Of a stretch of 64,000 nt of DNA, positions 6,102 to 63,343 are shown one piece after another (positions within the stretch are counted from its first letter, which is position 1; each line of letters starts with the position of its first letter). Under the pieces are notes generated by a model. It ran no database searches. It worked only from the letters and a program-made list of their open reading frames with translations, and was not told where the DNA came from. Position numbers and translations under genes: made by a program. The DNA is taken from assembly GCF_000258175.1 (NCBI RefSeq), contig NZ_JH636049.1, positions 272,982 to 336,981 of the forward strand, given 5' to 3'. This DNA is from Saccharomonospora xinjiangensis XJ-54. GTDB lineage: Bacteria > Actinomycetota > Actinomycetes > Mycobacteriales > Pseudonocardiaceae.

Positions 6102-6192
6102 GGAGGCGAACGGGAATCGAACCCGCCAACGACGGTGTCCGCCGTTCAACGGTTTTGAAGACCGTGCCGGTCACCAGGCCGGAAGCGCCTCC
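6102..6192 (-). tRNA. selC: tRNA-Sec (anticodon UCA)
   Basis: Read on the minus strand, the 91-base gene starts GGAGGCGC at 6192 and ends CGCCTCCG at 6102. The acceptor pairs GGAGGCG with CGCCTCC. The anticodon arm is ACGGT-CTTCAAA-ACCGT, giving anticodon UCA. The D arm is extended (CCGG/CCGG), and there is a long variable arm, seven pairs closing an ACA loop (ACGGCGG/CCGTCGT). The T loop TTCGATT sits on a five-pair stem. The long variable arm, enlarged D stem and UCA anticodon together identify tRNA(Sec). CCA is not encoded. Its position beside selA supports the assignment. Confidence 0.95.
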
Positions 6193-62489: not shown

Positions 62490-62706
62490 GTAAGGTGGCT
62501 GCGCAGTGGGTTCGCCCCGTCCTTTCCGGCCGGGGCGTCGCAAGAGGGAACCCGGTGGGAATCCGGGACTGCCCCGCAGCGGTGAGTGGGAACGACCGCC
62601 GTCATCGAGCACTGGGCCACGTGTGGCCTGGGAAGCGACGGCCAGTAGGTGCCATCCCGTCCCGGCCAGGGACGGTGGCGTGCCCGCGAGTCCGAAGACC
62701 TGCCTA
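62490..62706 (+). ncRNA. Cobalamin (B12) riboswitch
   Basis: The conserved core is fully readable: AAGAGGGAACCCGGTGGGAA then TCCGGGACTGCCCCGCAGCG and GTGAGTGGGAACGACC; the second domain with GCACTGGG and CCTGGGAAG (62609-62634) then CCAGTAGG; and the B12 box GAGTCCGAAGACCTGCCT (62688-62705), matching rAGYCMGgAgaCCkGCCd. Stem GGGTTC/GAACCC brackets the insertion arm. The orientation is plus strand, and the only downstream gene is the thioesterase at 62766. A hairpin CCGTGCGC-CGTCC-GCGCACGG (62711-62731) directly after the B12 box could be the expression platform. Confidence 0.95.
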
Positions 62707-62710
62707 CTGC

Positions 62711-62731
62711 CCGTGCGCCGTCCGCGCACGG
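62711..62731 (+). terminator. Hairpin between B12 riboswitch and thioesterase start (expression platform)
   Basis: CCGTGCGC (62711-62718) and GCGCACGG (62724-62731) form an eight-pair stem with loop CGTCC. It begins five bases after the B12 box and ends 22 bases before the AAGGAG site. It may switch between termination and continuation or influence access to the ribosome-binding site. No T-run follows. Confidence 0.6.
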
Positions 62732-62765
62732 TGCCGTCCGCCGCGACTCGCGAAGGAGAGCTCAC

Positions 62766-63203
62766 GTGGCACACCGCAACACGACGTTGCGTTCCGACCC
62801 CAAGACCCCGGAAGACTCCCAGGTCACGCTCGCCCACATCATGAGCGAGCACGACACCAACCTGTACGGCACCATCCACGGCGGGGTGGTGATGAAACTG
62901 ATCGACGACGCCGCGGCTGCCGCGGCAGGCCGTCACGCGGACGGCCCCGCCGTGACGGCGTCGGTTGACCGGATGACCTTTCTGGCTCCGGTGCGCGCGG
63001 GTGATCTGCTCAGCGTCCACGCCAGCCTGGAACGAGCAGGGCGGACGTCGATGACCACGGTGGTCCGTGTGACGTCGGAACGGTGGAACGCCTCGGGGCC
63101 GGTGACGGAGGTCGCGACCGCGAGGCTGACGTTCGTCGCCATCGACGCCGAAGGGCGCCCGAGGCCGATCCCACCGCTGGTCACACCACCCACGAACCCC
63201 TGA
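62766..63203 (+). CDS. Hotdog-fold acyl-CoA thioesterase (YciA/BACH type)
   Basis: 145 residues, GTG 62766 with AAGGAG at 62753-62758. The hotdog signature of acyl-CoA thioesterases is TNLYGTIHGGVVMKLIDDAA (residues about 35-55, catalytic Asp in LIDD), then VTASVDRMTFLAPVRAGDLL. It hydrolyses acyl-CoA to acid and CoA; the length range suits the YciA/BACH group. It is the sole gene following a cobalamin riboswitch and would therefore be lowered when B12 is plentiful, an uncommon target for this riboswitch. The 3' end abuts a 21-bp repeat array. Confidence 0.9.
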   Translation: MAHRNTTLRSDPKTPEDSQVTLAHIMSEHDTNLYGTIHGGVVMKLIDDAAAAAAGRHADGPAVTASVDRMTFLAPVRAGDLLSVHASLERAGRTSMTTVVRVTSERWNASGPVTEVATARLTFVAIDAEGRPRPIPPLVTPPTNP

Positions 63204-63307
63204 GCTCCCGCACGCGTGTCCGCAGCTCCCGCACGCGTGTCCGCAGCTCCCGCACGCGTGTCCGCAGCTCCCGCACGCGTGTCCGCAGCTCCTGCACGCG
63301 TGTCCGC
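63203..63307. repeat. 21-bp tandem repeat array, copy C (nearly perfect)
   Basis: Five units of AGCTCCCGCACGCGTGTCCGC at 63203, 63224, 63245, 63266 and 63287; four are identical and the fifth has one change (CTGCACG). It starts at the stop codon of the thioesterase gene and fuses with the hairpin at 63299-63343. The same unit makes up copies A (7333-7437) and B (8063-8232). Unit length equals two helical turns. Confidence 0.92.
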
Positions 63308-63343
63308 AGCGTGCGGTGCGAACATCCGCACGCTGCGGACACG
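63299..63343. terminator. 18-bp perfect hairpin ending the repeat array
   Basis: The left arm 63299-63316 (CGTGTCCGCAGCGTGCGG) pairs exactly with 63326-63343 (CCGCACGCTGCGGACACG), loop nine bases. The outer part of the left arm is the end of the last 21-bp unit, so the array runs into its own inverted half copy. It separates the convergent thioesterase and LCP genes and can act on both strands. Confidence 0.8.

Follow-up and report, generated by a model that had tools for sequence, protein, structure and literature searches.

A cobalamin riboswitch paired with a hotdog thioesterase gene in Saccharomonospora, Streptomyces and Kitasatospora

Cobalamin riboswitches are known to control genes for B12 synthesis, B12 uptake and B12-independent isozymes. 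Control of metE by this RNA is established in mycobacteria, and in Streptomyces the class I ribonucleotide reductase genes are B12-riboswitch targets as well. On the metabolic side, acyl-CoA mutases of the PF01642 type need coenzyme B12, and their stalling would trap CoA. As to mechanism, PMC2258182 describes how ligand binding breaks an antisequestor, after which a sequestor blocks the ribosome-binding site. Excerpts from PMC9529712 report that YciA, expressed heterologously in M. extorquens, acts on methylsuccinyl- and mesaconyl-CoA as a hydrolase, and cite Sonntag et al. 2015 for a sixfold higher yield when cobalt was lowered. Here we describe a locus of Saccharomonospora xinjiangensis XJ-54 in which a cobalamin riboswitch stands in front of a thioesterase gene. 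Both the RNA family and the enzyme family are known, and what we call new is the thioesterase as a target of this riboswitch: in searches of an open-access library, as judged by titles and abstract openings, we found no report of such a pairing.

The DNA analysed (hereafter the window) is a stretch of 64,000 nucleotides, positions 272,982 to 336,981 of contig NZ_JH636049.1. A covariance-model search with the Rfam cobalamin family RF00174, the check proposed in an earlier sequence-only reading of the window, returned a match at 62491-62721 on the plus strand that scores 90.4 bits (E 4.5e-21; the gathering score is 31.5) and spans the entire model (positions 1-189 of 189), in agreement with that reading's claim of a plus-strand B12 riboswitch with all conserved elements. 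The aptamer contains both the core (CCCGGTGGGAATCCGGG) and, as read from the sequence, the B12 box CGAGTCCGAAGACCTGCC, which stands at 62687-62704, one base away from the 62688-62705 given before. By its RNA family match the element is thus a cobalamin riboswitch, for which cobalamin binding and a change in expression are predicted. Its 3' end is separated from the start codon of the thioesterase gene by 44 nt that hold three overlapping or adjoining features: GACTCGCG (62745-62752, plus strand), an exact complement of the strand CGCGAGTC at the B12 box (62685-62692); the pre-start element ACTCGCGAAGGAG (62746-62758), of which GACTCGCG forms part; and a Shine-Dalgarno-like AAGGAGA (62753-62759, plus strand), partly paired in a predicted 23-nt hairpin of -4.9 kcal/mol. 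Folded without constraints, the 316-nt leader is of ordinary stability (z -1.07, with 11 of 100 shuffles equal or better).

The gene itself occupies 62766-63203 on the plus strand, with GAAGGAGA ahead of a GTG start at 62766 and a stop codon at 63201-63203. It is the next plus-strand gene after the riboswitch, as had been noted, and is followed by a minus-strand gene of the LytR-CpsA-Psr family. A 21-bp repeat in 5.1 copies (63203-63310) lies immediately past the stop. The 145-residue product is a hotdog protein that matches Pfam 4HBT (PF03061) with 74.8 bits against a cut-off of 20.6, and its closest solved structures by sequence are ACOT7/BACH-type acyl-CoA hydrolases. Against the NCBIfam YciA model (NF007970), in contrast, it reaches 62.7 bits, under the cut-off of 162, and is therefore YciA-like and not YciA proper. 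The earlier label, a YciA/BACH-like hotdog thioesterase, stands. What further sets the protein apart from the YciA/BACH (ACOT7) thioesterases, with which it shares the domain, is the B12 riboswitch that accompanies its clade. Judged by its family, the protein is predicted to be an acyl-CoA thioesterase.

Within Saccharomonospora the thioesterase gene is held by 6 of 12 genomes, and in all six (G000, which is S. xinjiangensis, and G001, G003, G004, G005 and G010) the riboswitch lies directly 5' of it. Four of the six (G000, G003, G004 and G010) have an intact gene, and in the other two it is broken: G001 lacks the N-terminal part, and G005 has lost the start region and contains two internal stops. 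The riboswitches ahead of these broken copies (loci L018 in G001 and L014 in G005) still score 77.9 and 75.3 bits. In the remaining six of the 12 genomes the gene was not found; three of these assemblies are 82-83% complete and two 91%, so that some absences may be gaps. With the gene broken in two of six holders and not found in half of the genus, the thioesterase appears to be dispensable.

Relatives in other genera were surveyed through the best 80 of 542 loci. A maximum-likelihood tree of 58 rows, in which the sister clade was thinned, places the window protein in a 28-row clade of Saccharomonospora, Streptomyces and Kitasatospora enzymes with 100/100 support. Twenty-three loci of the best 80 of 542 belong to this clade (L078-L099 and L133), and RF00174 directly precedes the thioesterase gene in 18 of them (L078-L089, L091, L092, L094, L096, L099 and L133, L078 being the same locus as L011). 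In three more (L090, L093 and L095) it precedes metE, with the thioesterase gene next on the same strand. L098, whose stretch is cut by a contig edge 138 bases ahead of the match, is beyond judging, and L097 has no RF00174 match, its upstream ORF carrying a C-terminal MetE domain only. The sister clade of actinobacterial thioesterases (~60% identity) belongs to the same family and is common in Streptomyces, yet differs both in a C-terminal tail, present in the members read, and in what lies upstream: none of the 57 other loci among the best 80 of 542 has both riboswitch motifs within 900 bases upstream at up to two mismatches, and an Rfam scan of six of the 57 gave RF00174 in none. When three mismatches are allowed, both motifs turn up in L145 and L156, two members of the 57, with a spacing or order unlike a riboswitch.

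A second draw, for this form of the thioesterase at E <= 1e-50, covered 295 genomes of the genus of G300 (Streptomyces). The form is held by 13 of the 295, with RF00174 directly before the gene in ten of the 13 (G300 included). Two others, G647 and G653, have metE between the B12 box and the thioesterase gene, and G485 (L203) keeps the B12 box and the pre-start element while its aptamer is reduced to the 3' part and gives nothing with Rfam at E <= 0.01. G631 carries an additional thioesterase copy, which has a B12 box but likewise no match in Rfam. This draw overlaps with the best-80 survey, and the two sets of counts are not independent. Across the class, 85 of 394 genomes have a relative at E <= 1e-30; this form occurs only in G000 (86%) and G300 (81%), the latter of which also holds the sister form, and all the rest are at or below 60% identity.

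The comparison of gene order that the sequence-only reading had called for therefore finds riboswitch and thioesterase kept together, and this conserved order backs the regulatory link it had drawn between them. That reading had also envisaged a riboswitch that always precedes another, now lost, gene; with the pairing kept across genera, we ruled this hypothesis out. The wider supposition that the riboswitch belongs to a lost gene or that the two stand together in this genome by chance could draw on G001 and G005, where the riboswitch persists while the gene is broken, but the same pairing in Streptomyces and Kitasatospora, in different neighbourhoods and with the pre-start element conserved, makes it highly improbable.

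The gene that most often accompanies the pair is metE, which adjoins the thioesterase gene, in full or as its C-terminal part, in 7 of the 23 clade loci of the best 80 of 542 (L088, L090, L093, L095, L099 and L133, plus the C-terminal part in L097; L099 is assigned by clustering and leader only). No other neighbour cluster besides metE and the thioesterase occurs in more than two of these 23 loci, as far as crude gene calls can tell; L085 and L094 have a four-gene block in common. In addition, G034 has a sister-clade relative in divergent orientation next to a metE gene that follows a riboswitch. These neighbourhoods, in which metE and the thioesterase gene follow a single riboswitch in the same direction in three of the 23 loci, would be in keeping with an enzyme that aids methionine or one-carbon metabolism and is for that reason co-regulated with metE. 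We consider such a role improbable, as no metE was found adjoining the gene in 16 of the 23 and we know of no thioester step of methionine synthesis that needs a 4HBT enzyme. Some clade stretches also hold B12-related genes with riboswitches of their own. Extra RF00174 matches stand before a periplasmic-binding-protein gene (L083 and L088), an ABC ATPase (L087) and a NicO transporter (L092), and a further one in L090 before a protein with an SQHop_cyclase_C match.

In the 58-row tree the Saccharomonospora rows nest among Streptomycetaceae, within a 20-row group supported at 98/97, and in 25 genomes of other genera in the family the best thioesterase match reaches 63%. From these relationships we infer that riboswitch and gene may have entered Saccharomonospora together, by transfer from Streptomycetaceae. 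An IS4-type transposase gene in L087 (9949-11274, plus strand), about 1.5 kb past the thioesterase gene, is a possible sign of mobility.

Between aptamer and gene, the pre-start element is found in 21 of 23 riboswitch rows (which count L078 and L011, one locus, twice) and in none of 95 other rows when a single mismatch is allowed; at this threshold it was not found in the riboswitch rows L099 and L159. Of eight metE leaders, six have a changed pre-start element and two (L004 and L072) the related CTCGCGAGGAG. Two alternative pairings are predicted for this segment. In the window, GACTCGCG would form a duplex of -15.4 kcal/mol with CGCGAGTC at the B12 box. Some leaders have a less stable counterpart of this duplex, with L087 at -6.1 and L099 at -1.7 as the low end. 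Alternatively, the element would fold on itself near the Shine-Dalgarno sequence, with predicted energies that vary by leader: most of those from other genera lie at -7.2 to -8.7 kcal/mol, L087, L091, L099 and L193 at -2.0 to -5.4, and the Saccharomonospora leaders at -4.3 to -4.9. Covariation in this hairpin is modest. In an alignment of nine distinct segments 88.9% of the cells are paired, a share that 15 of 500 shuffles attain, and likewise 15 of 500 attain the covariation score. Two pairs are changed on both sides, a number reached by 101 of 500 shuffles, and every measure drops when the partner is slid. Left out of the alignment were the Saccharomonospora segments, the altered L099 thioesterase segment and the metE segments of L004, L072, L090 and L133, the last two of which are in another register. 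For the segment after the aptamer, the computed probability of an unpaired Shine-Dalgarno sequence averages 0.57 in the window and ranges from 0.21 to 0.64 over the leaders listed. According to this calculation the window Shine-Dalgarno is not clearly closed after the aptamer, and its hiding is possible.

Because of the RNA family and of metE as a shared target, B12 is expected to act as an OFF signal, and the alternatives open to the leader, pairing with the B12 box or folding near the ribosome-binding site, fit a translational shut-off. With B12, the aptamer would close and make the B12-box strand unavailable; the pre-start element would then fold near the Shine-Dalgarno sequence and translation would fall. 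Without B12, CGCGAGTC of the aptamer would pair with GACTCGCG and free the Shine-Dalgarno sequence, and the thioesterase would be made simultaneously with MetE. That other soil actinobacteria show the same pairing, in some cases with metE alongside, suggests that these bacteria make the thioesterase when B12 is scarce.

The S. xinjiangensis genome (4.78 Mb) has three RF00174 matches, of which two are above the cut-off. The second strong match precedes metE, and the weak third (28.9 bits, below the gathering score) lies ahead of an ORF that we read, without a library search, as a BtuF-like B12-binding lipoprotein. The MetH family PF02965 is present in all 12 Saccharomonospora genomes. Three PF01642 matches were obtained in S. 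xinjiangensis: the two that were run are methylmalonyl-CoA mutase and the fused isobutyryl-CoA mutase IcmF, and the third, an adjacent one, is taken for the small subunit of methylmalonyl-CoA mutase. Its two other thioesterase matches are remote (32% identity), which leaves this genome without the sister form. Elsewhere in the window, class I ribonucleotide reductase genes (PF02867/PF00317 and PF00268; 53013-56563, plus strand) lie about 6 kb ahead of the riboswitch and are themselves not preceded by an RF00174 match at the gathering score, and a selenocysteine tRNA (RF01852, 77.2 bits; 6102-6192, minus strand) points to selenoprotein synthesis.

Our main reading, to which we give a probability of roughly 45%, is that the riboswitch turns off, at the level of translation, an accessory acyl-CoA thioesterase that relieves stalled B12-dependent mutases. 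The enzyme would split the acyl-CoAs that pile up behind such mutases and return free CoA; the mutases concerned would be methylmalonyl-CoA and isobutyryl-CoA mutase in S. xinjiangensis and other members of the family in Streptomyces. PF01642 mutases are present in all 35 genomes examined, with sets that differ among holders, which makes it more probable that the valve serves several stuck acyl-CoAs than that it serves only methylmalonyl-CoA. By match positions, 7 of the 22 other clade genomes, which were reached through loci, have no small-subunit-like methylmalonyl-CoA mutase match (those of L083, L087, L089, L091, L092, L098 and L133, the last a MAG), which likewise makes methylmalonyl-CoA alone unlikely as the whole answer. 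The L084 genome has only fragments of such a match, and the three mutases of the L083 genome all fall below the methylmalonyl-CoA mutase cut-off. The overload of methylmalonyl- or propionyl-CoA put forward in the sequence-only reading may be part of the link. Ethylmalonyl-CoA as the sole substrate is disfavoured, given the identity of the S. xinjiangensis mutases. The varying mutase sets, together with the ACOT7/BACH-type acyl-CoA hydrolases as nearest solved relatives, would also suit a broad or long-chain acyl-CoA thioesterase that at low B12 adjusts the pool of CoA or of precursors for fatty acids or polyketides and leaves stuck mutase substrates aside. The recurrent tie to metE and B12 riboswitches points to the loss of a B12-dependent step but is compatible with such an adjustment too, which we regard as less likely than the main reading.

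A methylcitrate bypass as compensation for the broken thioesterase was considered and dropped. Within Saccharomonospora, PF03972 (PrpD-type) is found only in G001 and G005, that is, in both genomes with a broken gene against none of the four with an intact one (S. xinjiangensis included) and none of the six without the gene. One PF03972 protein in each scores 64.1 and 62.8 bits, respectively, against a PrpD cut-off of 950, and its neighbours are a RipC-like lyase (below its own cut-off) and a Cyclase-family protein, with a CoA-transferase in G001. The corresponding minus-strand stretches (L204 4452-7497 and L205 4827-9056, the latter with the CoA-transferase) look like an itaconate-type operon. 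G001 has two further PF03972 matches, for one of which the ORF searched gave no family, and may still have a methylcitrate route. Among wider holders there is no association: PF03972 at E <= 1e-40 occurs in 3 of 22 other holders and, in the 295 genomes of the genus of G300, in one of the 13 holders and in 53 of the 282 genomes without the form. This distribution in Streptomyces indicates that a missing methylcitrate route does not explain which genomes hold the gene. The one of these 13 holders with PF03972 at E <= 1e-40 is G485, the genome with the reduced aptamer.

Taken more broadly, riboswitch and thioesterase could form a mobile actinobacterial module that serves as a safety valve in B12 starvation, freeing CoA and shedding the stuck acyl groups as acids, an idea that we find plausible while placing it short of an even chance. 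If true, it would be a gene-controlled bacterial counterpart of methylmalonic aciduria. A conserved thioesterase target would also couple the supply of B12 to the pool of acyl-CoA and free CoA in polyketide builders that use such CoA-esters, with a plain prediction as to which acids are shed once cobalt runs out.

Set beside the described systems, the alternative pairings predicted for the leader, if formed, would follow the logic of antisequestor and sequestor set out in PMC2258182. The riboswitch before metE is of the same RNA family and occurs in the same genome, several metE leaders have the same or a related pre-start element, and metE, too, is of use to a cell that lacks B12; the target in the window, in contrast, is a thioesterase and not an isozyme of a B12-dependent enzyme. 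A further parallel is the engineered Methylorubrum extorquens of PMC9529712, where, according to the excerpts cited, a YciA-type enzyme frees dicarboxylic acids from the CoA-esters of the ethylmalonyl-CoA pathway, a pathway with B12-dependent mutases, and does so to a greater extent at low cobalt. That strain is a laboratory construct, whereas in the window the coupling of a thioesterase to B12 would be natural and would be exerted through a riboswitch.
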